Below are positions 1,580-64,000 of a stretch of 64,000 bases of DNA, one piece after another. The notes under the pieces were generated by a model that was not told the DNA's origin, did not search any database, and saw only the letters and a program-made list of their open reading frames with translations. This DNA is from Closterium sp. NIES-65. Its lineage: Eukaryota > Streptophyta > Zygnematophyceae > Desmidiales > Closteriaceae. Location of the stretch: NCBI GenBank assembly GCA_948144175.1, contig CANXME010000043.1, positions 1,673,501-1,737,500 of the forward strand, written 5' to 3'. A program made the position numbers and the translations under genes. Position 1 is the stretch's first letter. Each line of letters starts with the position of its first letter.

Positions 1580-4500
1580 TCAGGCAGTAAGCAAGTGAGG
1601 CGGAATAGGCAAAAGGCCTAGAGCAGTGCAGAAACGCTGATGATCACCAGACCCAAGAGCCTTGGTCAATATAACAGCAGTGTTGGCCCGAGAGGCCACA
1701 TAAGCAAGATGGAGCTGACCACATTGTTGTAACTCTCGAGCATGAAAGTAGCGAAGAGCAATGTGCTTCGTGCTGTGCTCCATTCTTTGCTCTCGACACA
1801 AGGCAATTATGGTCTTGTTGTCAACGTACAGAACTGGAGGAGTACGAGGCCGCTCACTCAAGTCGGCCAGTAGGTAGGTCAGCCAGCGTAACTTCTATGC
1901 AGCCATAGTCGCAGCGTAGATCTCAGCCTCACAAGTCGAACCAAGCACAGAGAACGAAAGAGTGGACCTCTACGAGACAGAACCGGAGCCGCGATTAAAA
2001 GAGTAACCCTGTGACGACCGCTGGGTCGCCTGGTCGTCGGCCCAAGAAGCGTCGGAGTGTCCTGTGAGTACTACTGGACCTCGTCCTCCAAGCACAAGCT
2101 CCATGCACGATGTAATGCACCAGTACCCTTTGCGCAGCTATCCAGTGCTCCTTTCTGTGTCTCTCGAGGGCGACGAAGCGAGCAAGGATGCTGAGAGGGT
2201 ACGCGAGTTTAGGTCATGTGCACGTCATCAGGTACATGAGGTAGCCCACAAGCTCTAGATACGGGCCACACGACTCTACGGACCCGTCCGAAGGTGGAGC
2301 TGAGAGCGAGTGGCCTGTAGGCAAAGGAGTTGATTGTGGCGAGGAGAACCGAAAGCCGAAGTGTTGAAGGACCTGATGCATCATGTGTGACTGAGTCAGA
2401 GTGATGGTGCACCGTGCTTTGTCCCGGGTGATCTGCAGGCCAAGATAGCTACGCAGCTCACCTAGGTCAGTGCAAGTATGTCTCTTCTCCAGCTCCGCCC
2501 TCACAAGGGTCAGTGCCTCAATGTCGGCAGTAGCAAATACCAAGTCGTTGATGTACACTAGGATGTAGAACGGCGGCAGAGAAGGGTCGGTGCACAAAAG
2601 CAGCGGCGGGTCAGCAGTAATAGGAGCAAACCCAAGAGCCGCAAGTATCGTCCTTAGTGTGTCGTGCCACTCGTGGGGTGCGTGGCGAAGACTGTAGACT
2701 GGCCGGAGGCTCCACTGGGTACCCTCAGGAAATGACCTAGTGAAGCCAGGTGGGCGGCGCAGCCAGATCTCCTCATGAAGGCTGCCCTGCAAGAAAGCTG
2801 CGGAGAAGTCGAGGGAGTGCAGCTCATAGTCACGCAGTGCTGCAACGTGTAGCAACCACAGAAGAATAGTCATCTTCGGGGTGGGGAAGAAGGTCTGGAA
2901 GAAGTCGACCCCCTGTCGCTAACTAAAGCCTCAAGCAACGTAATGTGCCTTGAAGGCATGCGGAGAACCCGGCGGCCGCTTCACTCTGAAAAGCCACATG
3001 CCATCGACTATGTTCGCCCCAGGAGGAGGAATATCGTCAACGTAGGTGCATGTAGACTTACAGGTAGCCATCTTTGCGTCCATGGCTTTTTGCCGCTGAG
3101 AGGAGTACTCACACGTGATTGCCTCTGCGTAAGAGCGTGGGGTAGGGATGTCAAGTGCATCCAGGTCTCCGTCAGGGCAAGCATGGACGCAAAACAAGGT
3201 TTCGCAAGACATTCAAGCTCAAACTGTCTGTCCTCAAGGACGTCACTGCTAAGGGCAAGCTCACCCCCGACAGACGGAGGACAGACAGACTCACACTCAA
3301 TAGCAAGACTCGCGACGTAGTCGAGACGACGGGTACCATCAAACTTAACTATCGCAGGGTAAGGAGACGGAGCAGGCAGTGGGGAGCCAGGCAGTAGCGG
3401 TGGTTGTGACTGGTCAGGCGGTGGACGCAGGCGAGGCGGAGTAAGGCTAGTGGAAGACGGAAGGCTAAGAACCCGACGACGTGCAGAGTCAGGCGGTGGC
3501 AGGGACGACTTTGGCTGCGGATAGAAAAACATTCGTCGCGGCGCAATACCCATACCGTCAGCAGCTCCAGCACCCCCGGCTCCTCCAGCTCCAGCACCTC
3601 CAGCACTTCCAGTACCTCCAGTACCTCCAGCTCCAGCACCCGCAGCAGCAGTAGCTCCGATACCTCCTGCACCTCCAGCTCTAGCACCTCCGAAACCAGC
3701 AGCTCCATTACCTTTAGCGCCTCCAACACCTCCAAATCTAGCACCTCTAGCACCAGCAGCTCAAGTACCCGTAGCACCTCTGACTCTAGCACCTCCAGCA
3801 CCAGCAACTCCAGTACCGCCGGCAACTCCAGCTCTACCACCTTTAGCTCCAACAGCTCCAGCACCTCTAGCGCCAGCAGCCCGGCCCTGTCGAGCAACCC
3901 AGTCGCGAAGCTGCTGCGGCGAGAGAGTCTCTTGTCGACGAGACTGCTGCTGTTGTCCAACGCGAGAACCTCCAGTAGGAGCACCTACGACCCACCACCA
4001 CTAGGTTTCGCAGCACCCCCAGTGTCAGCACCCTCAGACTTAGCACCCCTAGAACCAGCACCCCCAGACTCAGCAACCCTAGGACCAGCACCTCTAAGAG
4101 TCCGCACCCCCAGTGTTACCACCCCCAACAGCACCAGAGTCCACAGCGACAGGTTGCAGAGGCGGCGAAGACAGACGAGGCGGAAAACCAGGAGGGGTCA
4201 CCGAGCCGAGTGGCCGCCGTGTCGTCAGCAGAGGGGTCATCCCCCTTGGCTGGGCCAAAGGTGTCATAGGAGACCTCCAAAGGCTCAACTAAAGGGGGTA
4301 GGTCGACCTGAGACAACGCTGAGGGAGCAGGACCCTGTAGGGGGAGGGGTTCTATCAGTGGGGGACCTGGGACCAGGAAGAGGGATGGCGGGGAGAGTGG
4401 GGAAGACGCGTGCGGGTGGAGACGGTAGAAGCAGACAAACTCGTCAAAGGTGACGACCTATGAGGACAGTGTGCGTCGCGAGGCAGGGTGGTAAAACTGC

Positions 4501-7934: not shown

Positions 7935-8750
7935 CTATGTAAGTGACGTGTTTGATGGTCATTCTGATAGATAATATTCGCTTTGTCCCCCTTTTGTAGT
8001 GCCTCCAAATAAACCAGCTCTGACATTTGACAATGCCATACCAAGCATGGCGGTTTTGGCTGCAGCATCTCTATAGGGAGCAGGCATGGGAAGTACTAGA
8101 AGGTTTATAGGCGCAATGACCAGAGGGGGTAATGTTGTTTTTTGCTTGCATGTTGTTTTTGTAGTGTAAAAAATGGCATGTACTGTTCTTGATACCCACC
8201 ATGAGTAAAGGAACGTGACTTATTGACCAAGCTCATGACCGTAGAAACTTACCTCCTCTGCTTGGGAGTGGGTATTTGCAGCAGTGCTTGCTGCTACTGT
8301 CGGTGGTAGGTGTTCTTAACAAAAAAAAAAAAAACACACACACACACACAAACAAACAAACAAAAAAGGGTATCATGAACTTCAGCATCCTTCCAATTTC
8401 AGTCCGCATCAACTTGTGGTCATCGGTCTACAGATGCCGACTACTCATGCGTAGGAGCTTCGCTCTCACGGTCAGGAAGCCATGACACCACCTCGCGTGA
8501 TGGCGCACGAGGTCCTTGTATAGAACAAGGTGGTGAAGGCGTTTCGGCTCTGGGAATGTGTTTGTGACTCGACCTGCCTTGTCACCAGTTCTGGAGAAAA
8601 TTCCATGCCAGGTTTCTAGGTACTGAAGCTCACTCTTAATTAGCAAAGGATGCTCATGATCGTGATTATGAAGAATACATAATATTTACATAGAAATACT
8701 AAGGGTATATATGAAAGGGGACGGCATGGGGATAGCAGGTGAAAACACAT
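7935..8750. other. Spacer with simple repeat and one unrecognised short frame
   Basis: Contains an A-run followed by (AC)n and AAAC repeats at 8320-8366. A minus-strand open stretch at 8428-8646 has a non-repetitive composition (includes HHLVLYKDLVRHHARWCHGF) and could be an exon or gene fragment, but I do not recognise it and see no convincing start. Confidence 0.3.
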
Positions 8751-26639: not shown

Positions 26640-29600
26640 CTACCCCCCGCCCAAGGAGGCGACGTCCGCGGCGCCTGCAGACTGAAGGTACGCTTGGAGG
26701 CAAGCGTTGTCAGGAGACAGCGAGGACGAAGGAACCCAGCTGTCGTCTGCTGCGTCGTAACCACGCCAACGAACCAAGAAGTCGATGAAAGTGACACCCC
26801 CCTGGAGACGGCGACGGTGCCTAAGGATGCGCTGGATCTGGTAGTCGGGCTCGTCGGTGTCAACAGCTACCGGCAGTGGAGTGCGATCACGGCCCGAGAA
26901 GGTGGCATTGGGATCGGTGTATGGGCGAAGGAGAGACACGTGGAATGACGGGTGCATGCGGAAATGTGCGGGAAGGCGAAGGCGGTATGCGACTGGACCA
27001 AGTGCGCGCTCAATGACGAATGGACCAATGAAACGTGGACGAAGCTTGCTGTCCTGTGGCAGTCGGAGGTTGCGGCTATCCAAGAGAACACGGTCGCCGA
27101 CTGCGAACGACACCTCACGACGGCTGCGGTTGGTGGTGCGTGCCATGCGTGCATTTGCGAGCTCAAGGTGCTTCCTCACGTGATCATGAATGAAGATGAG
27201 ATGCTGGTGGAAGTTGTCCGCACGAGGGACTGTGGGTGTGAGATCGACAAGAGTGGGGACATTGGGGTGCTGACCGTAAAGTGCAAAGAACGGTGACATG
27301 CCTGTGGCGGAGTGGTGCGTGTTGTTGTAGCCGAACTCTGCCATGCTCAGCTTCTTGTCCCATGCGGCTGCGTCGTGCATCGTGATGCTGCGAAGGATCT
27401 GCTCCAAGGTCTGGTTCACACGCTCGGTCTGTCCGTCTGTCTCTGGGTGGTACGCAGACGACATGGCTAAGCGAGTCCCAAACAGTGCGAAAAGCTGCTT
27501 CCAGAACTTCGAAGTGAAACGAGGGTCGCGGTCTGAGATGATGGAATCTGGAACCCCGTGCAGTCGGACTACGTTATCTACGAACAGCGTCGCGGCTTCC
27601 TCTGCTGTGACCTTGCCGTGCGTGGGGATGAAATGCGCTGCTCGAGAAAACTTATCCACTACTACGAAGATGGCGTCGTGACCCCCAACTGTGCGCGGTA
27701 AAGCCATGATGAAATCCATGGTAACTACCTGCCAAGGGCGGTCGGGCGGTGGAATCGGCTGCAAGAGTCCTGCTTTGCGCTGGCGAGAGGACTTCGTACG
27801 CTGACACGTGTCGCACGAGCGAATGTAATCCTCTACGTCTGCTGCAAGCCCGGGCCAGTAGTACGTGCGACTAAGCGTCTTAGCCGTCTTATCTGCTCCG
27901 AAGTGCCCTGCACTAACTACGTCGTGCGCCTCTGAGAGAAGGAGCTGTCGAAGAGGGCGGTAGGCTGGAACCCAAATCCGTGTGGTACCCTTCCGTATGT
28001 AGACACTACCCTGCACCTCTGCTCCTGCGGGCGGCTGCGGTGTGAAGTCGGGATCTACTGTGTAACCGTGCTCGAAGAGTGCTGTGAGAAGTGGGTGGCC
28101 AGCAGTGACTGTGAGACTGGCGAGCTGACAACTAGGGCGAGTGAGCGGATCTGCTGGGTTGCGCACGCCTGGCTTGTACTCTATCCTGTAGTGAAAGCTC
28201 CCTTCCATGAACTCCATCCACCTAGCCTGGCGACGACTTAGCTGCGGCTGCGACTTGAGGAAACGAAGCGAACAGTGGTCCGTGCGTATAACACTATCTG
28301 CCCCCTCTAGGTAGCACCTCCACACCTTATACGCATGGATGATCGCGAGCGCCTCCTTGTCGTGTATGGGATAGTTCAAATCCGCTCCCCTAAGCTTACG
28401 CGACTCGTACGCGATCGGCTGCAACCCGCGTCCCTGGTCCTGAAGAAGCACTGCTCCTATGGCCTGATCGGAAGCGTCGGTCACTACAACGTATGGGCGA
28501 GTGGGATCAGGGTACGACAGTGTCGGTGAAGACGTGAGCGACTGCTTCATCTGCTCGAACGCCTGCTGCTGCGCTGGACCCCAAACGTACTCTACGCCCT
28601 TCCGAAGTAGGTCGGTGAGTGGACTAGCGATCGATGCGTAACCCTGAACGAAACGACGGTAGTAGTTCGCGAAACCGAGGAAGCTTTGCAACTCCTTGAC
28701 TGAGGTCGGTGCTACCCAATCCTGTACTGCTGCGATCTTCTTCGGGTCAGTCCTAATGCCACTAGCGGATACGACGTGTCCTAGGAACTCGACCTCTGGA
28801 AGGAAGAACTCGCACTTCGACTGCTTAGCGTATAGCTGCTCCCTCCGTAAGACCTCGAAGACCTTCTGCAAGTGCTGCACGTGCTCATCTTTCGTCTTAG
28901 AGAACACTAGGATGTCGTCTAGGTAAACGACAACGAACGACCCTAGGAACTCGGAGAGGACTGTGTTCATGAGCGTCTTAAACTTCGCTGGGGCGTTGGT
29001 CAATCCGAACGGTAGAACCCTAAACTCGTACAACCCCTGCTTCGTACGAAACGCCGTCTTGTGCTGGTCCTCTGGAACTACTCGAATCTGGTGGTAACCC
29101 GAACGAAGGTCGATCTTTGAGAAGACTCTAGCGCCCTGCACTGCATCGAGAATATCCTCTACTCTCGGCACCGGGAATCTATTCTTGACGGTGGCGGCGT
29201 TCAGTGCGCGGTAATCTATGCACATCCATAACCCTCCGTCTTTCTTGGGTGCGAAAAGTATCGGTGCGGCCCAAGGCGATCTAGATGGCTGTATGAAACC
29301 CTGTGCGAGAAAGTGCCTAACTTGCTGCGTCATCTCCTCTGTCTCCGCTGGACTCAACCTCCACTGCGGCTTCGCTACTGGCCTGCTCCCCGGCTCCAAT
29401 TCTATTCGATGGTCTACTGCTCGGCTGGGAGGCAACCCTGGGGGCAACTCGTCGGGGAAGACGTCTGCGAACTCTGCTAACAGTGCACTCACCTCAGCAG
29501 GAAGAGTCGCCTTCTCACTAACTGCTGCACTCCCTCCTTTCCCCTCCTCAGCTTCCACCTCCTCAAGAAAAACCGCGAAGATCCGTGCCGCACGCTTCAC

Positions 29601-30158
29601 TAACTGTCGCACACGAACAGCATTAATGATAGCTGTGGATGATGTGGCCCCATCGCTCCACTGTGGCAGCTCCCGGAACTCCCCGTCTACCTTGACGCTG
29701 CAGCTTCCCTGAGCCCAATCGAACTGAGTACTAACCGTCCGTAGCCAATCTCTCCCGAAGATAAAATCGTATCCGTCCAGCGTCGCAGAGTCGAAATCAC
29801 GCCTGACTGTGATCGGTCCTAGCACTACGCGCAACTTGCGGATGATCGGTCCTATGTGAAGTGGCGTCCCATCTACCATGCGAGCGTCCTTGAAGTTGAC
29901 TGCTGAATCTGCTTCGAGATGGAGACGAGAAACTAACGATGAAGAGACGAACGAGTGGCTAGCTCCGCTATCTACGAGAATCTTAACAGGAAATCCGCGA
30001 AGCTTCCCTAGAAGCACGACTGGACGATCAACAGTGTCTACCTCGTTCTCCGTAGATGACTGCTGCAAAGCCGTCTCCTCTACGTTGGTAGACGTGGCGG
30101 GTACGGGAACCTCCACACCAGCTAGCGACCCGCTATCTACTGGCGGTTTCCGTTTCCC
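26640..30158 (-). CDS. pol: Gypsy pol polyprotein (PR-RT-RH-IN-chromodomain)
   Basis: One open frame of about 1170 codons. In order: aspartic protease with DSGASHSF near its start; reverse transcriptase with CIDYRALN and the YLDD catalytic box (about 28920); RNase H with VTDASDQA; integrase with the HHCC zinc domain (HFGADK... CDTCQRTK) and an intact-looking DDE region; and a C-terminal chromodomain ([10 protein letters not shown]... FLVRWRGYD, about 26760-26850). There is no ATG at the start: the first codons after gag are in the -1 frame relative to gag, so translation probably enters by frameshifting at 30152-30158. The stop TAG lies in the purine tract next to the LTR. No disabling mutation is visible. 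Confidence 0.93.
30152..30158 (-). promoter_or_regulatory. Putative -1 ribosomal frameshift heptamer G GGA AAC
   Basis: On the minus strand, in the gag frame, the bases read G GGA AAC, an X XXY YYZ slippery heptamer, five codons before the gag stop (30137-30139). Pol is open in exactly the -1 frame and has no nearby ATG. A downstream stimulatory structure was not established. Confidence 0.6.
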
Positions 30159-42324: not shown

Positions 42325-45300
42325 TCACTCGTATTGGGATGGTGAGATGACATCATCAATCTTGAGAATCATCTTCACAACCTGTGTAGCCAGCAACAGC
42401 TGTTGCTTCTTGCCAATCAACGTCTCAAATACCTTCTGCTTGCGCATGTCATTTGTCCCTGCATCCATGCAATCCACTCCCAGGTATGGACAGTTCTCCT
42501 GAGAGCCATGGGAGAGCGGGGACACAGAAAATGTTTCAATAAATTGCCACTGTATCAACACCATTTCATCAATCGCCTAGCCACTGTTCTCCGCCGGATG
42601 CCAGACTCTTTCAGGCCAAAGCTACTGCCTGCTACATTGATATAGTGAACATTAGTCCACTAGTCACTGTTGACTTAATCAATATGCAGAGGGTAGAGGG
42701 GTGTGAGAGAGGACCCATTTGTCTCACCTTGACCTGTTGTGCCTTGATGCTGGACACCGTGTCGATGGGTGGCAGGCCGCTGTTCTCCGCCAGAGCCATC
42801 GGCACCGCCTCTAGTGCCTCTGCAAAAGCCCTCATGGCGTACTGGCGGGTGGAGGGACAGGAGATGGGTGATAGAGCCACAAGGGGACAGAAAGGCAAGA
42901 AATGGGCACGGGAGAAGGGAACAGGGCTACCATGGGCACCGCCTCTAGTGTCTCTGCAAACGACCTTATAGCATACTGGAGGAGGGAAGGGGTTGGAATA
43001 CAGGGGTTAGGGAGCATGGGGAAACAAGGGGAGAACTAGGCAATCAGCAGGGAAAAAGAGGAGGAAATAACTGCCATTGACACCGCTTCCAGCACTCACC
43101 TGCTCCACCCCCGGGAACCTTGTCGGCTGCTGCCTCGACCACCAGCGAGCATGTGAGCTCGGCCGAAACCCCCCCCATACAGGATGAAGTTGTCTTGGAT
43201 GAGGTTCAGATGGGACTAGACTCACACTCACACATGCCAGGTGCGCCTCACCTGCTCCACCCCGGGAACCTTGTCGGCTGCTGCTTCGACCGCAAGTGAG
43301 CATGTGAGCTCCGCGGAGCCTCCCCCGTACACGATGTGGTTGTCTCGAATGAGATTGCGCGCCACACACAGGGCGTCGTGCAGGCTGCGCTTGGTCTCCT
43401 CCACCATCATCTTGCTGCCTGCCATGTGGAGAGGGAAGAGGTGGAAAGGGATGGAGAACGGTCAGCAAGGGTTGATAGGAGCCACACACACACAGGGCGT
43501 CGTGCAGGCTGCGCTTGGTCTCCTCCACCATCATCTTGCTGCCTGCCATGTGGAGAGGGAAGAGGTGGAAAGGGATGGAGAACGGTCAGCAAGGAATGAT
43601 AGGAGCCACACACACACAGGGCGTCGTGCAGGCTGCGCTTGGTCTCCTCCACCATCATCTTGCTGCCTGCCATGTGGAGAGGGAAGAGGTGGAAAGGGAT
43701 GGAGAACGGTCAGCAAGGGTTGATAGGAGCCACACACACACAGGGCGTCGTGCAGGCTGCGCTTGGTCTCCTCCACCATCATCTTGCTGCCTGCCATGTG
43801 GAGAGGGAAGAGGTGGAAAGGGATGGAGAACGGTCAGCAAGGGTTGATAGGAGCCACACACACACAGGGCGTCGTGCAGGCTGCGCTTGGTCTCCTCCAC
43901 CATCATCTTGCTGCCTGCCATGTGGAGAGGGAAGAGGTGGAAAGGGATGGAGAACGGTCAGCAAGGGTTGATAGGAGCCACACACACACAGGGCGTCGTG
44001 CAGGCTGCGCTTGGTCTCCTCCACCATCATCTTGCTGCCTGCCATGTGGAGAGGGAAGAGGTGGAAAGGGATGGAGAACGGTCAGCAAGGGTTGATAGGA
44101 GCCACACACACACAGGGCGTCGTGCAGGCTGCGCTTGGTCTCCTCCACCATCATCTTGCTGCCTGCCATGTGGAGAGGGAAGAGGTGGAAAGGGATGGAG
44201 AACGGTCAGCAAGGGTTGATAGGAGCCACACACACACAGGGCGTCGTGCAGGCTGCGCTTGGTCTCCTCCACCATCATCTTGCTGCCTGCCATGTGGAGA
44301 GGGAAGAGGTGGAAAGGGATGGAGAACGGTCCGCAAGGGTTGATAGGAGCCACACACACACAGGGCATCGTGCAGGCTGCGCTTGGTCTCCTCCACCATC
44401 ATCTTGCTGCCTGCCATGTGGAGAGGGAAGAGGTGGAAAGGGATGGAGAACGGTCAGCAAGGGTTGATAGGAGCCACACACACAGGGCGTCGTGCAGGCT
44501 GCGCTTGGTCTCCTCCACCATCATCTTGCTGCCTGCCATGAGGAGAGGGAAGAGGTGGAAAGGGATGGAGAACGGTCAGCAAGGGTTGATAGGAGCCACA
44601 CACACACAGGGCATCATGCAGGCTGCGCTTGGTCTCCTCCACCATCATCTTGCTGCCTGCCATGTGGAGAGGGAAGAGGTGGAAAGGGATGGAGAACGGT
44701 CAGCAAGGGTTGATAGGAGCCACACACACACAGGGCGTCGTGCAGGCTGCGCTTGGTCTCCTCCACCATCATCTTGCTGCCTGCCATGTGTGTAAGGTGG
44801 GGAGCATTCGAAACTATTTTGTGAGGAAGGAGGGTGTCAGGGGTACCGAAAAGATGGCAAAGGGATGGGGGGAAAAGAAAAAGCAAGGCATGAAGAGGGT
44901 GGGGGAAAGGGCAACGAGTCTTGCTGCTTGTGCATATGACAGTGTGTGTGGGGCCGGGGGGGGGGGGGAGGGGGAGGGGAGAGGACGATGGACAAACCAG
45001 CTCCTGATGTCACACTAACCCTCCAAGAAATACCCACATCATCTCTCTGCATACCCCAGCACCGCGATGCATGAACCCCCACTGCTCTACATGCCGCCCC
45101 ACCGCTCTTGATGCCCAAGAACCACTCTGCATGCCGCGTCACCGCTCAACATGCCCGACCATCTCTCTGCATCCTCACCCACCACTCCGCATACCTCCGC
45201 GGATGAAGATGGTGACGGCGCGTGAGTTGGCGCACCCCTCAATGTAGAGCATGCGGTCCTTGGTCGTTCCAAACGCCTTCTCCCGCACCACACCAGCCTG

Positions 45301-48300
45301 GATGGGGGGGGAGCAGGGACGGAGTGGAAGCATGGTAAGGGGTGGTGCGAGCGATGTGTGTTGGCAGCATGGGTTGGCGCACCCCTCAATGTACAGCATA
45401 GCATACGATCCCTGGTCGTGCCAAAAGCCTTCTCGCGCACCACTCCACACTGGCCCACATGGGGGGCAGCAGAGAGCAGGTGGAAAGTGGTGGAGCAACG
45501 GGCGGGTAAAAGCTTCCCGAGGGCGGGTAAAAGCTTCCCGAGGGCGACCCCACTGGCCCACATGGGGCGAATCCACTGACCCTATGAGTTAACCCCATCC
45601 AGCTACCATCTCAGACCCTGTGAGTCCCGAATCAACCTCCACACCCCACCAACCTTGCCCACCCTCCTCATTCCCCGCACCTTGCACCCCCCCCCCCCCC
45701 ACCCCATCCTCCCCCCACCCCCCCCTCAAAACCTTGCCCACCCTCCGCCCACCTTCCACAACCCCCCTCACCTTGCCCAGCTTCTCGGGTGTGAGCTCTT
45801 GGAAACGAGGTACGATGCGGCCGCCTGCACCAAGGAAATGGCAGGGAAAGAGAGGGGGGGAAGGGGAGAGGGGGGTACAAAGGGAGAAGGGGAGAAGGGT
45901 GGAGAGGGGGGGAGACGGGTAAAGAGGGAGGGAGAGAAGGTCGAGCGGGGGAGAGGGGAGTAGAGAGGGTGAGCGAGGGAGAGGAGGAGTGCGAGTGGGG
46001 TGGGAGCGAGAGAGGGAGGGAATGAGGGGGATTGAGGCGAGGGCGTTCGGCCAAGAGCGATCATGGGACAAGTTGCCTTTTCTTTTGGGGAATTGAAGTA
46101 GATTCAGTGGTGCAGCGGATCTTGCAGCGGCGCAGACGTGCATGAGCAGCAGTGATGTATGCCACATGACGCAATGTATGCTCTGCTCACCAGTGAGAAT
46201 CGTGACAAGATCCTCTAGCTCCACCCCTTCACCCAGAGGGCCAAGCCGCGGTGCAGGTGGTTGCGTGCGGCCCACAATAACAATCCACCGTGACTCACCA
46301 GTGGCAATGGCGATGAGCTCCAGCTCCACGCCTCCCACCCAGCGCACGGCAGGCAAGCCTCGGTGCATGAGCAGATGATTGGCCTCGTCGTCAAACCCCC
46401 ACTGGCAGATCACCAGCGTGGCGCCCGCGTCCTGGGAGAAAGAAAGGGGGGGGTGGGTGAGAGAAGATGAAGAGTGATGTGAGAGCATGATAGCAGGTGG
46501 TTGGCCTCGTCATCGAAACCCCACTGGCAGATCACGAGTGTGGCGCCCGCGTCCTGTGAGGGTGGGGTTAGCAGAGAGATAGGGGAAAAGAGGAGGTGAT
46601 GAGAGTAAGGGGAGGGTGTTGTGAGAAAAAGATGAGCAGAAGGTTGGCCTCGTCGTCAAACCCCCACTGGCAGATCACAAGCGTTGCACCCGCATCTCGT
46701 GAGTGGTGAAGCCTTGTACCCCGTCCCTAGCCCTCTCTCTCGCCCGCCACCCTCTCACCTTGCACTGCTGCACCATATCGTCAAAATATTTCCGCTCCGA
46801 CTCCTGCAGCCGCTCGTACTTCTCCACGGTATCAATGTCCACCTTATGCTTCGTCTTGGGCCTCAAGAGAGCACGGTGCCCCTAAACCCCCAACCCCCCA
46901 ATAAACCCCAAAACCGTGTCATTCTCACCTTGCACTGCTGCACCATATCATCAAAGTACTTCCGCTCAGACTCCTGCAGCCGCTCGTATTTCTCCACCGT
47001 GTCAATGTCCACCTTGTGCTTCGTCTTGGGCTTGGGCGGCTCAAACGGGCACGTCAGAATCGCAATCTTGGCGTCCTCAATCCGCTTGGGCATCTGAGGG
47101 TGGCTGAAGTCCTTGTCCACGATAATCCCTCGGACGAGCTCCGTCTCCTCCAGCCGCCCGCCCGTCTTGCCCTCCACTTTAATGAGCTCCAGATTCACGT
47201 CGCGGCGTTCCAAGTCCGCTACAGCCAACACTGCCTGTACAGCAATCTCAGCCATCTGGCGCTTGCAGCGCCCCACACTGCGTTGGGGGATGGGAAGTGA
47301 GGGGAGGGGGCAGAAAAAAAGGTGAGGGCGATTGCAATCTTAGCGCCCTCGATTCGCTTGGGCATCTGAGGGTGGCTCAAGTCCTTGTCCACGATAATCC
47401 CTCGCACCAACTCCGTCTCTTCCAGCCGCCCGCCAATCTTGGCCTCCACCTTGATCAATTCCGGATTCACATCCCGGCGTTCCAAGTTTGCTACGGCTAC
47501 CACTGCCTGTACCGCGATCTCAGTGATCTGCCTCTTGCAGCGCCCAACGCTGGGATTTGGAGGTGGGAGGAGAGAAGGGTGAGTGCAGGAAAGTGAATGG
47601 GGGAAAGGGGGCGTTCCAAGACTGCCACTGCCAGCACTGCCTGCACTACAATCTCCACCAGCCTCTTGCAGCGCCCCACACTGGGTCGCAAAGGGGAAGG
47701 ACAGGAGAGGCGCGAGAACATATAGCAGACAGCACAGCACGCACACACACCTGCACCTAGCAGCATCACACTCACATCTTGGTATTTTCAAGTGCCTCCC
47801 TGATCGCACGCCCTGTGACAAGCAGGCCTACACCTAGCATCACCCGCCTACACCAAGCAGCACCGTACTCACATCTTAGACGAGAGCGTGGTCATGCACG
47901 TCTCGACGAGCGGCTCGAAGTTATCCTTGGAGAATTCGAACGTCTCCGCGATCGCATCCAGATGCGCCGCCGCGATCTTGGACGCCATCTCGTACCCCTC
48001 CGCCACGCGGATGGGGTGGATGCCGCGGTCGAGCAGAGCTTCCGCCTGTGAGGGGTGGAACGAATAGGAAGAGGGATGGATTGAGGGGGTCGAGCGGGGC
48101 GCAGAAACAACGAAAGAGGATGCGTGGGTGCGATCTTGGACGCCATCTCGTAGCCCTCCGTCACGCGGATCGGTGGATCCCACAGTCGATCAGAGATTCC
48201 GCCTGGGGTCGAGGGGTTGGGTGAGCGGGCAAGGAGGAAACGGGCAGAGGAAAGTAGTGAGGATGCCACGCAAATCGGGTGGAACCCGCAATCGAGCAGC

Positions 48301-49879
48301 GCCCCGGCCTGGGGAGTGGAATGAGAGTGCGGAAAGGTCGATTGAGGAGGCAAAACGGGAGGAAGAAGCGAGCATGACTCGTGAGCGAAAACTCCGTAAA
48401 ATCAAAGGGGGAGATCGAGTACAGCGCCGCAAGAAGACAAACAAGTCAGGCGTGCTCTTGACGGAAAGATTCACGTCGTCCTCCAATTCATCCGCGCGTA
48501 GACCTGCTCGCGCTACACGTCCGCACCTGCTTTAGCAGTGCGTCCTTGACGGGACGAGACTGACTTTATCCTCCTTGGGGCATACCTGCTTGCTCACACA
48601 CACGTGTACGCCGGCACGCACCTGCTCGAGCAGCGCGCCGGCGGTGACGACGACGCCGGTGGTGCCGTCGCCGATCTCGAAGTCCTGGCTCTTGGACAGA
48701 TCCACCATCGGCCGCCCCACGCGGCACCACCTCACATCAACGTCCATGACTCTCGCAACACACTCGCACCTGCTCTAGCAGCACACAAACGCACCTCTTC
48801 TAGCAGCGCGCCGGCAGTGACGACGACGCCGGTGGTGCCGTCGCCGATCTCGAAGTCCTGGCTCTTGGACAGATCCACCATCGGCCGCCCCACGCGGCAC
48901 CACCTCACATCAACGTCCATGACTCTCGCAACACACTCGCACCTGCTCTAGCAGCACACAAATGCACCTGTTCTAGCAGCGCGCCGGCAGTGACGACGAC
49001 GCCGGTGGTGCCGTCGCCGATCTCGAAGTCCTGGCTCTTGGACAGATCCACCATCAGCCGCCCCACGCGGTTCTCCACCTCCATCTGCTCCAGAATCGTC
49101 GCGCCGTCGTTCGCTGTGCAGGGGGGGTTAGAGGGAACAGGGGATTGGGTTTGGAAGGCATCAGCGCATTGGGGACGGATCGGGTTTCGACGCGCCTCCA
49201 CCTCCATCTGCTCCAGAATAGTCATGCCGTCTGTCGTTAGATCATCTGACGGTATGCGGGAAGTGGATATTCGGAAGGCATCAGGGGACGGGAATACAGT
49301 CGCCGTTGAAAATGAATCGGGTTTCGATGTGTGTGAAAAGATCACCGTATGCACGTCGGCCCTCCGACTCAATATGCTCCATAATCGTCGCCGCGAAGTC
49401 GTTTGCTGGTGGAAAACGAGCGAAAATGCAGAGAATGGGAGGAGTGGGGGGACTGGGAGGAATCGGGAATTGATCGACAAGGTCCACCGTCGCAGTTCTC
49501 TATCTGTCGCAGAATCGCCGCCATAATGGCTGTGACTGGGAAAAGTGCAGCTGCTAAGAAGAACGAGGAGAATTCGCTGGAAACGAACCGCCGATTTGCT
49601 TCCAAAAGGCAGATCCGATTTGATTTGGCTTATGTTCGAAGATCTATTGCCATTGCCTGACAAATAATAAATCTGCGTACTTATAGTGACGTCGCCATCG
49701 CCGCTCTGAAGCATCTTATCCATTCCCTTGGGCCCGAGCGAGCTGCGGAGAATCTTCGCGACGGATTTGGCGGCGAGGATGTTACCCTTCTGCGCCGCGA
49801 GACCCTTCACACGCGACTTGGTCTCCTGCTCACGTATGATTATAAACGGCCGACCGAACTCATCGAAAGCTAACGCCAT
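42325..49879 (-). CDS. CCT5: T-complex protein 1 subunit epsilon (CCT5)
   Basis: Subunit of the cytosolic group II chaperonin that folds tubulin, actin and other clients with ATP. Ten exons splice to 536 aa, the normal length: 49681-49879, 48968-49113, 47873-48045, 46929-47277, 46299-46431, 45772-45824, 45195-45297, 43252-43418, 42728-42841, 42325-42498. All introns obey GT-AG and all phases join. Visible signatures: [18 protein letters not shown] start, [20 protein letters not shown], the nucleotide-binding [37 protein letters not shown] and [13 protein letters not shown]. The odd feature is that most exon edges have additional truncated copies in the neighbouring introns; the exons listed are the only chain that keeps a full open frame. 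Start chosen as the first ATG, matching the conserved plant N-terminus. Confidence 0.95.
42923..42975 (-). repeat. CCT5 exon-9 shard (acceptor side)
   Basis: Encodes [15 protein letters not shown] after a CTCCAG acceptor, a copy of the start of exon 9 (42841 end), located upstream in intron 8. It then loses register. Confidence 0.85.
43095..43205 (-). repeat. CCT5 exon-8 shard (donor side)
   Basis: A diverged copy of the last two thirds of exon 8, ending in a GGTGGAGCAG|GTGAG donor like the real one at 43252. A G insertion and other changes break its frame. Confidence 0.85.
43367..44795 (-). repeat. 124-bp tandem array of CCT5 exon-8 acceptor shards (12 copies)
   Basis: A 124-bp unit is repeated 12 times, counting the real exon edge. 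Each copy contains the pyrimidine-rich intron end, the CATGGCAG acceptor, and the first 45-50 coding bases of exon 8 ([17 protein letters not shown]), then runs into a GT-rich stretch (ACACAC on the plus strand) and back into intron. Copies are nearly identical, with a few substitutions and one 2-bp deletion, suggesting recent expansion or homogenisation. Only the innermost copy (43418) continues into the rest of exon 8. 124 is not a multiple of three, so including a unit would shift the frame. Confidence 0.95.
45372..45455 (-). repeat. CCT5 exon-7 shard
   Basis: Copy of the first three quarters of exon 7 (MLYIEGCAN recognisable, frame broken) located upstream of the real exon at 45195-45297. 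A further fragment (ACTGGCCCACATGGGG) repeats at about 45550. Confidence 0.8.
46188..46253 (-). repeat. CCT5 exon-5 shard (donor side)
   Basis: Encodes [16 protein letters not shown], a decayed copy of the exon-5 end [14 protein letters not shown], followed by a GTGAGC donor. Lies just downstream of the real exon. Confidence 0.8.
46499..46697 (-). repeat. CCT5 exon-5 shards (acceptor side, two copies)
   Basis: Two extra copies of the exon-5 start ([16 protein letters not shown]) at 46499-46553 and 46640-46697. The nearer keeps a CACAG acceptor; the farther has a changed acceptor. Confidence 0.85.
46759..46864 (-). repeat. CCT5 exon-4 shard (donor side)
   Basis: Near-perfect copy of the last 105 bases of exon 4 ([20 protein letters not shown]...) including the GCAAG|GTGAG donor, located downstream of the real donor at 46929. 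Confidence 0.9.
47326..47680 (-). repeat. CCT5 exon-4 shards (acceptor side, two copies)
   Basis: 47326-47549 repeats about 220 bp of the start of exon 4 ([20 protein letters not shown]... to [10 protein letters not shown]) with an open frame and an AG acceptor. 47608-47680 repeats only the first 70 bp or so ([18 protein letters not shown]) with a deletion. Intron sequence between copies also matches. Confidence 0.9.
48130..48308 (-). repeat. CCT5 exon-3 shards (acceptor side, two copies)
   Basis: 48130-48202 is a copy of the exon-3 start ([18 protein letters not shown]) with a 1-nt deletion; 48261-48308 is shorter and more decayed ([14 protein letters not shown]). Divergence rises with distance from the real exon at 48045. 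A donor-side fragment of exon 3 also lies at about 47770-47790. Confidence 0.85.
48600..48910 (-). repeat. CCT5 exon-2 shards (donor side, two copies)
   Basis: Two nearly identical copies of the last 110 bases of exon 2 ([22 protein letters not shown]...GALLE) with donor-like ends, spaced 171 and 177 bp from one another and from the true exon end at 48968. Both lack the exon's 5' part. Confidence 0.92.
49185..49545 (-). repeat. CCT5 exon-2 shards (acceptor side, three decaying copies)
   Basis: Upstream of the true exon-2 start (49113) lie three copies of its first 45 bases or so. They encode [13 protein letters not shown] (about 49192-49240), [15 protein letters not shown] (about 49365-49410) and [13 protein letters not shown] (about 49493-49540), in order of increasing distance and decay. 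Intron flanks are also repeated. Confidence 0.8.
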
Positions 49880-54415: not shown

Positions 54416-57400
54416 CTAGGAATACTTCGGAAGATCAGTCGGTAACCCGGCGTCATCCCACTCCTCGTCACTGTCTGCATCCTCCTCATCACTCACTTCT
54501 AAGTCCTTCACAAAGCTCTTGGAACCGCGGCTGCGGTCCACCTTCTTCAGCTTCTCCTCTGGTAGCCTCTCCAGGTCACACGGTGCAAACCCCCGGTGCA
54601 CGAACCTGCAGGCACGGGGGCGAATCATGAGAGGCATGGAGAATACCGCGAAGAGATGAGTGGACATGGGCTGGTGAAGAGATGAGTGGACATGGGCTGG
54701 TGAAGAGATGAGTGGACATGGGCTGGTTAGGCGGCTCACAGCAGCACACAGAACCACGGAAGGAGGAGAAAACTGGCAGAGGAGACCGTGGGTGTGTGGA
54801 AGAGAGGGCATATTGATTGGCCAGCACAGCTCTCACCATTGCCGCTGATAAGCCTTCCTTTGGAACGTCCCAACACTCATCACCTCTCGGAAGGCAAAAG
54901 GTGAAGCCAGCCCGAGCTGCATCTTGTTCCTCAGTGTCCCATCCACTCACCAGTCGGCCGTGCGTGTGGTCACGAGGAACAGCTTCGCCATGCCCATGCC
55001 CGCCACCACCTCTCCGTCAAACACCCACACACTCTCACACCACCCCCTGCCAGCATCCCCCTCAGCACTCACCAGTCACCACCCCTGCCAGCATCCCCCT
55101 CAGCACTCCCGCTGGGAAGAAGCACGCCAGCATCCCGCCATGCACACCTTCACCTCTTCTGCAAGCACATCACACCCCTGCTCTTCCAACCCCCCTTCCC
55201 CCCCACCCACTCACCAGTCAGCAGTGCGCGTGGTCATGAGAAACAGCTTCTCCATGCCCATGTCCACTGCGCGCTTCTCCAAGTATGCTGCCAGAGGGGG
55301 AAGGGGAGGGGGAAGAGAGAGCAGGGGAAGCGGGGTGGAAAGGGTTTGAATAATGTGAACATACAACTGGTAGACAGAGGGGCAGACACACAGAAAGTGT
55401 TGAAATTTAGAAGCTCAGGGTTTTTACATGTCTTGACCATCTCTATAGCTTAGCCTTGCCAGTTCATACCCTGTCAGTGCTCACACTTCATACCCACCAC
55501 CCCCTGCAGCGCTCCCATACTCACCAGTCACCACATCACTCCCCCTCGTCACATCATACCCCACCCCACCCCACAGCACAGCACAGCACAGCACAGCACA
55601 GCACAGCACAGCACAGCACAGCACAGCACAGCACAGACCACAGCACAGACCACAGCACAGACCACAGCACAGACCACAGCACAGACCACAGCACAGACCA
55701 CAGCACAGTCCACAGCACAGACCACAGCACAGACCACAGCACAGACCACAGCACAGACCACAGCACAGACCACAGCACAGACCACAGCACAGACCACAGC
55801 ACAGCCCACAGCACAGACCACAGCACAGCACAGCACAGACCACAGCACAGACCACAGCACAGCACTCACCCAACAGGTTGTCCCCGCGCCCATTCCCTCG
55901 CGATGCAGGCGAGACGGCAAAGGCAGCGACTTCAGCCATGCGGGCAGAGGGGAAGGGGAAGAGCGCCGCACAGGCGATGGTATGGCCGTCCCTCTCCACC
56001 ACCGTGAAGAACGGCAGCTCCCTGCGCAGCTGGTAGGGCAAGGGGGGGTGGATGGAGAATGGAGGAAGTGGAGTATGAGTGTGTGGAGTAAGATCAGCGC
56101 ATCATCAGCATGAGTGCACATGCGATGGTATGGCCGTCCCTCTCCACCACCTAAAGAATGGGAGCTCCCTGCGCAGAGGGAGGACGAGTGGAGGGGAGGA
56201 AGACGAGTGCAAGGACGAGGAGGAGGAGGATTCGTCAGAGTACACACGGTATGCTGCGGCAGTCGCTCTCCCTCGATATCCACTCACAAAGGCACACACA
56301 ATCACACTGTTCCCCCTAACCTGCGCACACCGAGTCAAACCGAGTCAAGGCCTGCTCACCTGCTCGTCCCCTCTAGGAAGCAGCACCCCAGCGGCCTCCA
56401 GAGGCTCCAGCAGCGCTCTGATGCCCGGCATGTCCGACACCTGCTGCCGAGGCCTGGAGGGCGCTCACAGCCACTCTAACACCCACACTCACACCCACAC
56501 ACACCCACACACACCGAGTCAAACCGAGTCAAATTTCTGCTCACCTGCTCGTCCCCTCGGGGAAGCAGCACCCCAGCGGCCTCGAGGGGTTCCAGCAGTG
56601 CTCTGATGCCCGGCATGTCCGACACCTGCGCAGCCCGCGTGCCCTCGTATAGATCACTGTTGTAAAGGGGGGGGGGGGGAGGGGGGAGGAACGGGGAGGG
56701 GACGGAGTCAGGAGCGGGAGGTAGGAGATCATAAGTAGGTGATGTGAGTCTACAGGTGCATGCCATTGTACAGATTGCTGTGTCTGGAAAGGGGTGGATG
56801 GGAGGGGGAGGGGGAGGGGGAGGGGGAGGGGGACAAGCGGGAATGGATGGAGGAGGAAGACCAGAATCAGTCTATACGTTTGGAGTGTTATATAATGTGC
56901 GTTGCCTTGACTCATGTGCTGAACCGCGTTTCAAGCCCATGCAAAAACCGTACTGCACCCCTGAACACCATGGTGCCGACGCCGTCCCGAGTGTAGAGAG
57001 CTCCATGCACGACCACAGCACAGGGCACGTGGGCCAATCCCACCTGCCAATCCCACCTGCCAATCCCACCTGCCAATCCCACCTGCCAATCCCTCCCCTC
57101 ACCTCGACTACCCCTCGCTCCCCCCTCACCTGGACACCATGGTGCCCACGCCGTCCCGTGTGTACAGCTCCAGCAGCAGCAAGGGGCACGTGTGGCACCG
57201 CATGCGCTGCCTTGATGCCCCCTTGCCCCCGCCCCCACCCCCTCACTTGGGCACCATGCCTGCCACCCCCCCACCCCCTCACCTGGAGACCATGGTGCCG
57301 ACGCCGTCCCGTGTGTACAGCTCCAGCAGCAGCGTGCCCTCCACTCCACTGTCTAGTAGATGCACCCGCCGCACCCCGCCCTGTTAGCAAGGGAGTACAG

Positions 57401-60400
57401 AGGGGTGAAGAGGGGTGACGAGGGGTGAAGAGCGTCAGAGGCACACAGCAGCAGTGTGCCCTCCACTCCACTGTCCAGTAGATGCACCCGCCGCACCCCG
57501 CCCTGCGATCAGAAAGGGATGGAGAGAGATGGAGAGGGGTTAAGAGAACTTATGAGGGGCACACAGCAGCAGCATCCCCACTCACCTGTCACCCATCATT
57601 CACCCAGCACATCCCCTCACTCACCCGGCAGGCATACACAGCAGCAGTGAGCTCTGACAGGAATCCGTATCGATGCACCGACCGCTCCTCTCCGCCCACC
57701 GCAAACCCCCGCCTCTCCTCCGCCCTCCCCGCCGCGCCACCCCCCCCATTCCCCCCCCAACCCCGCGCAGCACTCTCCCCAAACCCCGCCTCCGCCAAAC
57801 CGCCATTCCCCCAGCTCTCCCGCGCGCCCACTCCCTCCGCGCCCGCGGCATTGCCCCTGCCGTTGCCCCTCTCGCTCCACACGTCCCTCCCCTCTCGCGC
57901 TCCACTGAACGTGGGGAGGGGCGGGCCAGGCTTCTCAAAGCTCATGCTATACAGAGCCCGCTGCGCCTTCCATCTCTCCATACTTGCTGCGACCTCCTCC
58001 TCCTCTTCCTCCTCCTCCTCTCCTTCCCCTCCCCCCCCTCCCCTCCCCCCCTCCCCCCACTCCTCCCCCCGCTTCTTCTTCCCCCGCTTCCCCTTCTTCC
58101 GCCTCCCCTCCCCCGCGCCCTCCCCCTCCGCGCCCCCCGCGCCCTGCGCGCCGACGAGCCCGAGGCTCCTAATATACTCCTCTCCGGCGACGGCTTTAAC
58201 GTACTCCGCGGCAGCATAGCTCTGCGTGGCGCGGTTCCTTATAATCACATCCGCCTGCTGCAGCGTCATCCAGCGGATCAGCCGCCCGCGGTTGTCCGCC
58301 ACTGCGCCGTCCAGCAGGCAGATCAGCTTGTCCGCTCCTAGACCTATGGCGCATGCCGTGGCGACCTCGTACGTGCTGCGAGGGGGAAAGAGGGGAGGGG
58401 CAACGAGGGGATGGGAGGAAGAGGGGAGGGGCACGGAGAATGAGCTTGTCCGCTCCTAAGCCGCTGGCGCACGCTGTTGCTACTTCATACGTGCTGGGAG
58501 GGGGAAAAGACGGGAGGGGAGGAAGCGGGGGGCGGAGGAAGGGGGAGGGGAAGAGGATAAGCCTGCTGCAGCGTCAGCCACCGAATGAGCCGCCTGCGGT
58601 TGTCCGCCACTGCCCCGTCCAGAAGACAAATCAGCTTGTCCGCTCCTAGGTCTATGGCATATGCTGTAGCGACCTCATATGTGCTGGGAAGGGGAAATGG
58701 GGGGATGGGGAAAAAGGAGGATAAGCTTGCTGCAGCGTGAGCCACTGAATCAGCCGCCCGCGGTTGTGCACGACTGCCCAGCAGGCAGATCAGCTTGAGC
58801 TTGGCAGATCAGCCGAGTGAGGACGCGGTGAAAGTGGAAAATCGATCGCCTAATGATCGTTTTTTAGCGCGGTTATAAAAGGTTGTGTACATTTTGTTTC
58901 CAGAACGCGGGTTTCAGTGCAGTGACCGAATCGATCTACCCCCGATCGAGCACTTTCACCGCGTCCTGAGGAGCAGCAGAGCAGCACGGCACTCACTTGC
59001 TGTTGCTCAGAAGAACGAAGAAGCTGCTGAGGAGAAACGCTCTGTGCCACTAACGAATGGGTAGCAGCAGAGCAGCACGGCACTCACTTGCAGTTGAGCA
59101 CCTCGCCCGCGGGGGTGAATCCCAGGTTGCTCAGCAGCACGACGCAGCTGCTGTCGAGGCGGCTCCTGATGCGCGCCACGTCCACGCGCTTCACCTCGCC
59201 CGTCGCCCCGTAATCCACGCCGCCCACCACGCCCCGCCGCTGCTCACCACCGCACATAACCGCACGGAACCGCACAGAACACAGAGAACGCGGTTTTTGG
59301 CGACAGAAAGTGAGGAGGGGTGATGCAATGGCGCAGAAAAGCGTGTCAGGTTACAGTGACCTTGCCATTCCATCCAACCGCACGCAACCGCGCCCCACCT
59401 TGGCGTGCACGAAGTTGCCGCTGGCGACGCTGATGCCCACTTCGTGCCACTTCTCGCTCTCGCCGTGCCTTCGCAGCACCGGGATCACCGGGCCGCGCGA
59501 CAGCTTCGCCTCGATGTCCACGCGCGTGCGCCCCGACGCCTCCATCGCCGCCGCCAGCGCCTCCGTGTCCGTCACGCGATACGCGCCGTGAAACACGGAC
59601 GCGACGCCGCGCTCCTCCAGGAGATCGTTGATCTGCACGTGGCTCCCCGGCACGAGCACGATGCGCACTCCCAAGCCGTGCAGCAACGCTACATCCTGCA
59701 AGGGGGGGAACCGAAGGGGGGGTAAGGGGGGTGGAGGGGGGATGGTGGGGCGGAGGTGAAGAGGAGACGGAGCAGGGAGAGCTGGGTTGATTGTCGATTC
59801 ACATTCGAGGGACCTAGGGTCGAGCCTGCATGATCAAACCAGGTCGTGTTATTCACATTCGTTCTTACAACGGGAAGCAAGACAGCAACCCCTGTTTGTT
59901 CACATTCTGGCGATCCGAGGTCGAAACTGCAAGATCGGGTCAGGCCATTCGATTAACATTCGTTTCTATAACGGGGAGCATGAAAACTCCCTGATTGTTC
60001 ACATTCGAGGGATCCGGGATCGAACCTGCAGGATGGAGTCGAAGATCTGACGGTTCGCGACGACGTCCCCGGGAACGACGATAACGAACGTGCTACCGCG
60101 ATGGCCCTGAATGTACGGCCACGCCTCGCGGAACCACCGCACGAACTGCGCCTCCTTCAGCGCGTCGCGCAGATCCTCCGCGCGCGTCGCGTCCTCGTCC
60201 GACGACGCGTCGCCTTCCGTCCGGTTACCGCCTTGGTAGCCCTGAACTGCGACTCGGATGTTCGTCTGGCGGCGAGAAGCCATCTTGGTCGTCGATCCCG
60301 TCTTCTTCGACGGTTGCTGATGCTCCTGATGCTTCGAATTCGCCTTCGCGGTGATTGTGAGGTGCTGCGAGGAGACGACAGCGCCAACTGCGGTGGGAAC

Positions 60401-62226: not shown

Positions 62227-63748
62227 TCAGGGAGCATCAGCAGCAGGATTATCACCACAGCTGGTCCCCGGACAGAACTGCTCTTGCAGCGCAGCGATTT
62301 CCTTCACGACCTCGTCAAAGTCAGGCCGCGCCTCAGGGCACTTATCCCAGCACTGCTCAATCAGCCGCCGCAGCCCCACTGGGCAGTCCGCCGGGATCGT
62401 CGGGCGCAACCCGTTAAGCGCCACCGCCACCGCGGCTTGTAACGGAGTGTAATCCTCAAACGGCAGTTGACACGCGACGAGTTCCCAGAGCACGACTCCG
62501 AAGCTGTACACGTCGCTCTTGAGCGTCACGTGCCACGGGCTCGTGCCGAACGCTTCGGGCGCCATCCAACGGTAAGTTCCGACCTCCTTGGTCATGTCGC
62601 CGCGCTCCCCCTTCAGCCGCGCCACGCCGAAATCGCCGACGACGGCGCGGCCGGCGGAATCGAGGAGGACGTTGGCGGATTTCAGGTCGCGGTGAATCAC
62701 GCCGCGCCCGTGGAGAAACGACATCCCCTCTGCGACATCGTGCGCGATTCGCAGGGCGTCGCCGAGCGGGAGTCGCTCGCCGTGGCGACGTCGCACAAGG
62801 TCGCTGAGCGTGCCGCCCTCCATGAGTCGCGTGACGATGCACATGCGACGGCGCGTGTCGAGGCACACGCCGACGAACTCGAGCAGTCGCGGGCACTCGT
62901 CGCACGACATGAGCGTCTGCACTTCCTGCCGGAATTCAGTCGCGCTGGCGTGGCGATCGATAGTATCACCCTTCATTACCTTCACGGCCACCGCCTTCCC
63001 CTCGTAGCTGCCGCGGCGCACCTCGCCCGACGCGCCGACGGCGATAAGCGCGCCGATTTCGAGCTTGAGAGGGTTGAGGAGGAACTCGCTGAATTGGTTC
63101 GACGCGCTGCGGCTGTTGAAGAGTAACACCTGCAGGAGGTCGTTCGCGTCGCCTGCGATGCTCTTCGACGACGGGACTCGAGTAGTGAAACGTGGACTAA
63201 CAGGCGGCTTCCGCGCCGAGCTGTCAGAAAAGAGGGTTGGTCTATCGAGCGCTGACGTGGACAGTTCTGACTGGCAGTTAGGGATTGTGGTCGGAATGGA
63301 CGTGGCGGAGCGGGGTCGCGAGGTCTGCTTGCCGGCGACCGTAAATATCTCCTCTATTTGCCGCTTCGATATCTGCGATATAGCCGCTCGGACGGTGAAA
63401 AAACCCAATGTGTACCCGTGGACTGTTCGGAACACGGAGCAGTCTAAAACGCGGACGCCGGTGCGCTGGAAGGCCGCGGTCAAGCTCCGCTTGCAGACGC
63501 GCGCGCTGCACGCGAAACTGATGTTCATAATTCCCGTGCACGAAATGTCGTCCACTGACAATAACGAAAACCCGCCAATCGACGAGTCGTCCGTTTCGCT
63601 TTCGTCACCGGTCATCGTCGAGTCGCCGCTGTCGGTCGCGCGCATGTCGAGCCGCAGTGCAGGCACGCCCTCTTTAAGCGCCGACGCCTCCTTAAGCAGG
63701 TCCATGTGCTGCAGCACGTCGGACCGCGAATAGTTCTTGGCAACATAG
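62227..63748 (-). CDS. Raf-like ACT-domain protein kinase, last exon (partial)
   Basis: 506 residues of a tyrosine-kinase-like Ser/Thr kinase, resembling plant STY8/STY17/STY46-type Raf-like kinases. The exon starts after a CCCTGCAG acceptor at 63749. An ACT-like segment (MNISFACSARVCKRSL... HGYTLGFFTV) lies near 95-150. The kinase domain follows a Ser-rich linker: G-loop IAVGASGEV, lysine in VAVKVMK, catalytic HRDLKSANVLL, DFGVAR, activation-segment end GTYRWMAPEAFG, and subdomain IX DVYSFGVVLWEL. All catalytic residues look intact. A stop at 62227 follows CGDNPAADAP. Earlier exons lie beyond 64000 or upstream of the intron. Unlike its two neighbours, no shard copies are visible in it. Confidence 0.9.
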
Positions 63749-64000
63749 CTGCAGGGAGGGACAGGGGGGTATAGAAACGGAGGGCGAAGACATGGGTCAG
63801 ATAAGAGACTATGAGTCGACCAGACGAGGTACGGACTGAAGCTGTGTTGGCTTGAAGTGGCTCTCCCACTCTCTCGCTTCATCACTCTAGGCTCGCACGA
63901 AAATTGAAATTAGGGGGAGCAAACTCAGCATAACCATCGACATCTATTCTCCCCTCCCGTTCTCGCAGCGCTCGCAACGATTGCATTGAAGAAGACTGCT
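63749..64000. other. Kinase intron / upstream sequence
   Basis: A pyrimidine-rich intron end precedes the exon. No further exon could be assigned before the window ends. Confidence 0.45.

Follow-up and report, generated by a model that had tools for sequence, protein, structure and literature searches.

Stacked partial copies of exon edges in CCT5 and other genes of Closterium sp. NIES-65

Results

Partial exon copies at the CCT5 locus

The DNA analyzed here is a 64,000-nucleotide stretch (the window) of the nuclear genome of Closterium sp. NIES-65, taken from contig CANXME010000043.1 (positions 1673501-1737500) of assembly GCA_948144175.1, which has 874 Mb in 2400 contigs. It carries a CCT5 gene on the minus strand, running from 49879 to 42325 in window coordinates, with 10 exons, GT-AG introns throughout, and 1611 coding nucleotides specifying 536 amino acids plus stop. 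The predicted protein is identical to an NCBI protein of Closterium sp. NIES-65, agreeing with an earlier note, made from the sequence by itself, that one open, canonical 536-aa chain runs through the gene. The same chain is found with 99-100% identity in proteins of NIES-64 and Naga37s-1, following long N-terminal extensions, and a Yama58-4 protein matches it from exon 2 onward.

Many of the introns contain truncated copies of the neighboring exon, which we refer to as shards: a head shard carries the acceptor side and the start of an exon, and a tail shard its end and the donor side. In a BLAST search of each exon against the gene, exons 2, 3, 4, 5, 7, 8, and 9 proved to have head shards upstream, and exons 2, 4, and 8 to have tail shards downstream; an old exon 5 tail emerged from a matrix of exon-versus-intron scores. 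The earlier note had listed shards at these same exons, placing copies of exon starts upstream and of exon ends downstream, and this arrangement is borne out, with the orientation always direct. Exon-versus-intron scoring found no shard of exon 1 (49681-49879), exon 6 (45772-45824), or exon 10 (42325-42498, including the stop codon).

All of the CCT5 shards lie on the minus strand, as do the exons. Exon 2 (48968-49113) has two head shards, E2u1 (49196-49231; 92% identity), which starts at exon nucleotide 6, and the far E2u2 (49352-49408; 75%, AG retained), together with two tail shards, of which E2d1 (48735-48911; 96%) includes the donor and a spacer in a 173-bp unit, and the outermost (48618-48738) has an intron flank unlike the E2d1 spacer. 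Exon 3 (47873-48045) has head shards at 48119-48205 (85%) and 48265-48324, both retaining AG, and a weak donor-side copy of its last 5 nt plus 32 intron nt at 47744-47780 (81%). Exon 4 (46929-47277) is preceded by E4u1 (47331-47592), which contains 219 exon nt and ~40 intron nt with 22 synonymous and 12 nonsynonymous differences, and by a second head shard at 47610-47686 (80%, AG retained); its tail shard at 46753-46861 (93%) has eight synonymous and no nonsynonymous differences and retains GT. The exon 5 (46299-46431) head shards are at 46485-46560 (87%; seven synonymous and no nonsynonymous differences, AG retained) and 46632-46696 (91%; five synonymous and one nonsynonymous, acceptor AG gone), and its old tail shard at 46191-46255 retains the donor GT. 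Exon 7 (45195-45297) has a single head shard, E7u1 (45367-45475; 77%). Upstream of exon 8 (43252-43418) is an array of 11 head shards (43487-44790), each with 56 exon nt and an AG, repeated with a 124-nt period, the outermost having a differing upstream flank; the exon 8 tail shard (43095-43206; 85%) carries the donor GTGAGT. Exon 9 (42728-42841) has a head shard at 42930-42990 (82%, AG retained), and a weak match at 42580-42603, scoring 30 against a control maximum of 25, is possibly an old piece of the same exon.

As a test against chance similarity, we determined the best local score for each of the 10 exons against each of the 9 introns, and compared adjacent cells with non-adjacent and reverse-strand cells. 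Scores of at least 30 were obtained in 12 of the 18 adjacent cells, compared with a maximum of 25 both in the 72 non-adjacent same-strand cells and in the 90 reverse-strand cells, and the presence of exon-edge shards in CCT5 is confirmed. With low complexity filtered out, the gene contains 24 pairs of direct repeats that are 35 nt or longer, of which 23 involve an exon, one is between two shards, and none is intron-only; shorter or simpler intron-only tandem repeats do occur (e.g., 45077-45187, 45500-45546, and 47826-47864). Recognizable copies account for 2752 of the 5944 intron nt (46%), the nearest shards sit 46-89 nt from the intact exon, and each shard bears just one exon edge.

The earlier note also proposed that many shards keep the splice site and some of the flanking intron. 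The first part holds, with the splice dinucleotide present in 9 of 11 distinct heads and all 5 tails (E7u1 having been re-read by eye and E2u1 left unscored); outside E4u1 and the arrays of exons 8 and 2, the matching intron flank is short (0-22 nt). The decoy acceptors and donors that it had pointed to are indeed plentiful, and exon 8 has 12 near-identical acceptors, 10 of which are preceded by an identical 25 nt. A natural guess is that the exon 8 donor would select among these through exon definition.

A second CCT5 locus, on contig C1794, is 99.6% identical to the window locus across 11.9 kb and has the same shard structure. Neither the exon 8 array nor that of exon 2 showed a copy-number difference between the two contigs; the 21-nt repeat at 45500-45546 does differ in copy number between them. 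The earlier note had named an assembly artefact as a way in which its observation could fail, and the equal structure at C1794 speaks against this, although as a partial check, both loci deriving from the same read data. Even with a single sequencing project as the source, shards that differ from their exons by up to ~30% and recur both on a second contig and in many genes leave an artefact with virtually no credibility. The genome paper of this Closterium complex reports PacBio assemblies and extensive copy-number variation (PMC10407611), and in the part of it available to us, partial exon copies are not mentioned. Among the titles and abstracts in our literature search, in which subscription papers were thinly covered, we recognized no prior description of such exon-edge stacks.

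Exon-edge copies are widespread but uneven

Partial copies of exon edges are not peculiar to CCT5, and are widespread but uneven among other genes. Chaperonin loci were drawn from 166 candidates, 87 of which were scored, and all were taken except for a third copy (C821) and a duplicate (C1882). In nine other chaperonin loci (one per duplicate pair), shards are present at 25 of 41 HMM anchors, 20 upstream and 19 downstream, with no inverted shards in the nine loci tested. Tail copies precede head copies between all 10 of the neighboring anchor pairs that have both, and likewise in 3 of 3 CCT5 introns with both. This order is informative as to whether the introns themselves were born by tandem duplication of AGGT-bearing exon segments, a known mechanism that leaves direct repeats between intron and exon (PMC3443670). 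Such a birth predicts the downstream head before the upstream tail, the reverse of what is seen, and several of the repeats contain intron sequence, indicating that the intron came first; we give this origin very little credence. One chaperonin locus, L027, is on a 110-kb contig with zero short-range direct repeat, and is possibly not nuclear Closterium DNA.

Among five tRNA synthetase stretches, shards are present at eight of nine anchors, with 26 direct rows (some overlapping) and one inverted. Three of the five (L044, L046, and L048) were chosen for overlapping HMM hits; the two that were not (L045 and L047) have shards at four of five anchors. Five kinesin loci, drawn from the hit list regardless of shards, have them at only 2 of 16 anchors, all in L040, where one extra copy is inverted, and we count these near shard-free genes against the explanation that we favor below. 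The kinesin HMM hits C511:712945-713361 and C1052:556971-557362 cover an equal range head to head, as inverted partial copies. Within the window, the neighboring gene (~55850-58800, minus strand) also carries shards. It has a Pfam match to the GNAT domain, and presumably resembles plant N-acetylglutamate synthase. Its exon-like repeats include 58253-58412 with 58561-58722 and 56326-56444 with 56510-56629, and a head shard of its exon at ~56029-55859 lies at 56116-56176 on the minus strand, extending the pattern beyond CCT5.

The earlier note held that its reading would fail if shards were equally frequent away from exon edges, and here the outcome is divided. Ten arbitrary 5-kb segments of the genome average 23% short-range direct repeat (range 0-63%, median ~16%, a few being satellite-rich), close to the 27% in chaperonin loci; the remainder of the window is poorer, with 4% to the left of CCT5 and 16% to the right. 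The arbitrary segments contain 72 direct pairs and no inverted ones. As random DNA is also rich in direct repeats, exon edges need not be special targets, and the exon shards are part of a tendency toward local direct duplication that runs through the genome.

This abundance is what would be expected if contiguous tandem duplications arose at random sites in a genome with short ancestral introns, with purifying selection on one copy and neutral decay of the others, the exon half having a conserved template and so staying recognizable for longer. Both the geometry of the shards and the order of tails before heads then follow automatically, and polymorphic tandem units exist, some of them intron-only. 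The flanks and the divergence of the shards, described below, fit this account less well.

Arrays and intron flanks

Two CCT5 arrays, the youngest in the gene, have one more exon piece than they have spacers. Counting the true exon, the exon 8 array has 12 heads and 11 spacers and the exon 2 array has three tails and two spacers, and in both the outermost flank is unrelated. A contiguous duplication must copy the intron tail, and n pieces with n-1 spacers thus sits badly with it. Of 16 CCT5 flank comparisons, four (E2d1, E4u1, E7u1, and one inner exon 8 unit) give a match above controls at the 5% level and the other 12 do not; for older shards a lost match is expected anyway, and the telling cases are therefore the copies farthest out in each of the two young arrays.

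Among heads that extend to the exon edge in the other chaperonins, the eight with the least divergence (pS up to 0.21, based on few sites, and three of them from one exon) have just 2-20 nt of matching intron, mostly pyrimidine-CAG. Of contiguous duplicates simulated at pS 0.05-0.18 with realistic indels, 1-15% have a flank match no longer than 15 nt. Matches of 20-60 nt past the edge are seen in 10 of 20 edge-reaching tails and 6 of 25 heads, those heads all having pS of at least 0.29, and in none of the eight least diverged heads. Contiguous-looking duplicates, which E4u1, E7u1, E2d1, and the inner exon 8 units also resemble, and heads with unrelated flanks therefore both occur; in L011, four similar heads lie behind three types of flank, as read by eye. 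The longer matches are those that random contiguous duplication predicts, and the eight low-divergence heads, as well as the two arrays, are those that it does not.

Low divergence together with unrelated flanks may mean that heads were joined from different copies, or that gene conversion was confined to the exon part. Alternatively, breakpoints could be fixed by splicing or by RNA, for example in repair templated by nascent or partly spliced RNA, such that edges are copied with little intron. Homology starting within ~20 nt of the acceptor in the eight heads is consistent with this, but the bases shared before the acceptor are splice-signal-like, so that chance similarity is possible, and other shards have longer flanks; we consider RNA- or splicing-set breakpoints improbable.

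The earlier proposal of tandem duplications spanning exon-intron boundaries, persisting because an intact inner copy remains, accordingly survives in part. The duplications are local and tolerated thanks to the inner copy, and many tails and older heads do come with their flank. It does not account for the spacer counts of the two youngest CCT5 arrays or the short flanks of the least diverged heads elsewhere, and it foresaw neither the protein-preserving divergence nor the recombination between shard and exon.

Shard divergence preserves protein sequence, but current change is neutral

We compared 60 shards with their exons at ten chaperonin loci representing nine genes, including both L021 and one anchor of its duplicate L022, and having dropped the remainder of L022, the 25-nt satellite rows of L023, and rows with fewer than 40 coding nt. 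There are 320 synonymous differences at 1106 sites and 193 nonsynonymous differences at 3395 sites, distributed over the codon positions as 104:79:330. The position-3 share of 0.643 is well above that in a neutral simulation (0.449, sd 0.022, maximum 0.500 in 60 runs), which used the mutation spectrum measured between duplicate loci plus a CpG bias and gave 386 differences per run, compared with 513 observed. The tRNA synthetase shards behave similarly, with differences of 47:35:144 (144 of 226 at position 3). Indels in the chaperonin shards number 31, fewer than the 58-137 expected under neutrality, although local alignment undercounts them. Not all shards follow this trend, and E2u2, with one synonymous and eight nonsynonymous differences, looks neutral, as do some other CCT5 shards. 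Detection bias as the sole cause does not yield the synonymous excess in the simulation, and CpG mutability is insufficient to explain the position-3 excess even at ~4.8-fold, an estimate inflated by ascertainment.

Recent changes have a different character. Between near-identical duplicate loci, shards have 18 mismatches in 5464 sites, against a background of 302 in 63800, and these fall 5:7:6 by codon position ('exon' mismatches of L011 and L017 that map onto an extra unit were set aside by hand). Present selection on the shards is unsupported by these numbers, and shards seem to have passed only part of their divergence as non-coding DNA. Could the shards nonetheless be functional, as alternative or regulatory exon edges conserved at the protein level? 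The synonymous bias of their divergence and the retention of most splice sites would agree with such a role, but current mutation lacks codon bias, 18 of the 60 are frameshifted, those in CCT5 have one exon edge apiece, and the annotated NIES-65, NIES-64, and Naga37s-1 proteins contain the intact chain with no shards; we regard a function of this kind as very improbable.

The excess at position 3 and the shortage of indels, together with the flank results above, weigh against random contiguous duplication with neutral decay, and on balance we think that account unlikely, if a serious contender. Comparing an exon with two of its shards gives 55:38:118 for shard-specific changes and 6:5:34 for changes that are exon-specific or ancestral; this is suggestive, but the changes are unpolarized and we do not lean on it. 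That the synonymous changes in shards are unpolarized also counts against the explanation favored below.

Recombination between shards and exons

L017 and L018, which are duplicate loci, have 99.2% identity across 8.4 kb, and L018 contains a head shard and spacer (136 bp) that are absent from L017. The L017 exon is chimeric: from the upstream intron across the acceptor and into the first codons it matches the L018 shard, and after a switch inside a 20-nt shared tract it matches the L018 exon instead. The simplest reading is that in L017 a deletion by homologous recombination made the acceptor and first codons of the shard the working edge, with the protein unchanged. The polarity is assigned by parsimony, and the opposite is disfavored because it would require a new unit whose spacer had diverged far beyond its surroundings. 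A difference in unit number is seen between L011 and L012, with four heads in the L011 array and five in that of L012.

The L011/L012 and L023/L024 duplicates are mosaics, with blocks that are 94-99.6% identical, hinting at recombination between lineages of differing age. Short inserts with a palindromic core of the TTTTGAGNNNNCTCAAAA type are present in introns or shards of L012 (2761-2837), L016 (5071-5114), and L021 (4513-4565; strand coordinates), and also near 8100-8300 in both L017 and L018. Those in L012, L016, and L021 are each in one duplicate locus only and look like small mobile elements.

Discussion

How exon-edge stacks could arise

The explanation we favor, to which we would give an even chance, is that the shards form non-coding stacks of exon edges that recombination has reshaped, with part of them deriving from diverged functional copies. 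A founding event, in a genome where short direct repeats are abundant, would set a second exon edge (an acceptor with its head, or a tail with its donor) beside an intact exon. Recombination between edges could then add units, as in the 12 heads and 11 spacers at exon 8, remove them, or swap sequence, and could turn the splice site and first codons of a shard into a working exon edge. Splicing would join the innermost intact edges and ignore the rest; if only these are spliced, shards would be tolerated and decay like intron. In part of the stacks, the edges brought together would have diverged while each was still functional, either in alleles or in related lineages in which the exons still pair and the introns no longer do.

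We infer this diverged source from the mostly synonymous differences and from the least diverged heads having unrelated flanks. A hybrid strain and recombination between lineages within the complex are described in section 8 of the genome paper (PMC10407611). Against a diverged source, it would require synonymous divergence (often 0.2-0.4) that is high for alleles that recombine, and the most diverged duplicate pair is ~94% identical in parts; for CCT5, no diverged donor emerged among the assembly matches listed, which comprise just the two loci that are 99.6% alike. Gene conversion limited to the exon could operate without a diverged source, but alone gives no synonymous excess. Should the diverged source fail, we would fall back on plain tandem duplication with decay and conversion, which would leave the synonymous excess without an explanation.

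A stronger version would have exon edges behave as recombining cassettes, acceptors with heads and donors with tails, that come from diverged functional lineages, since exons alone still pair between these, and are exchanged with the working edge, with introns growing as they archive former edges. We advance this tentatively, and rather doubt it; flank homology in half of the tails and some older heads has lowered our confidence in both the diverged source and the cassettes.

Relation to known systems

Gao and Lynch in 2009 and Hellsten in 2011 reportedly described internal gene duplication and the gain of introns through tandem genomic duplication. Tandem genomic duplication can yield introns with intron-exon repeats, according to a review (PMC3443670). 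The Closterium shards are similarly direct partial exon copies beside a parent exon and involve splice sites. They differ in that the introns pre-exist and grow by stacked edges, with no new intron position seen, in that the order is opposite to the AGGT model, and in that most junctions of some genes are affected. Tandem or mutually exclusive exons likewise repeat exon sequence, splice sites included, within a single gene, but the Closterium copies are truncated, have one edge, are neutral now, and are often frameshifted, and none could replace the exon as is.

The arrays at exon 8 and exon 2, with head-to-tail units of 124 bp and 173 bp, respectively, resemble minisatellites with unequal exchange, and the copy-number variation typical of minisatellites is seen in the L011/L012 array. 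Unlike minisatellites, the Closterium unit holds an exon edge together with its splice site, and the working edge can be replaced when a unit recombines with the true exon. In plants, filler DNA and patch-mediated break repair produce local copies that are short, direct, and separated by other sequence, as seen here, but the Closterium copies include a splice site and differ mainly at synonymous sites. The CCT5 shards, compared within CCT5, match only their own adjacent exon, which speaks against introner elements.

These genes offer a natural test bed for how a spliceosome chooses one of up to 12 near-identical acceptors, and an example of intron growth from a non-transposon source. They may also preserve traces of recombination between diverged lineages within the group of algae nearest to land plants, and if the cassette reading is true, then splice sites turn over through recombination and not by mutation alone. 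Exon-like sequence beside true exons can also mislead gene predictors and spliced-read aligners.

Elsewhere in the window, a Ty3-type retroelement ORF at 26640-30116 has Pfam matches to RT, RNase H, integrase, and chromodomain, and a protein kinase ORF of 552 aa occupies one open frame at 62227-63885.
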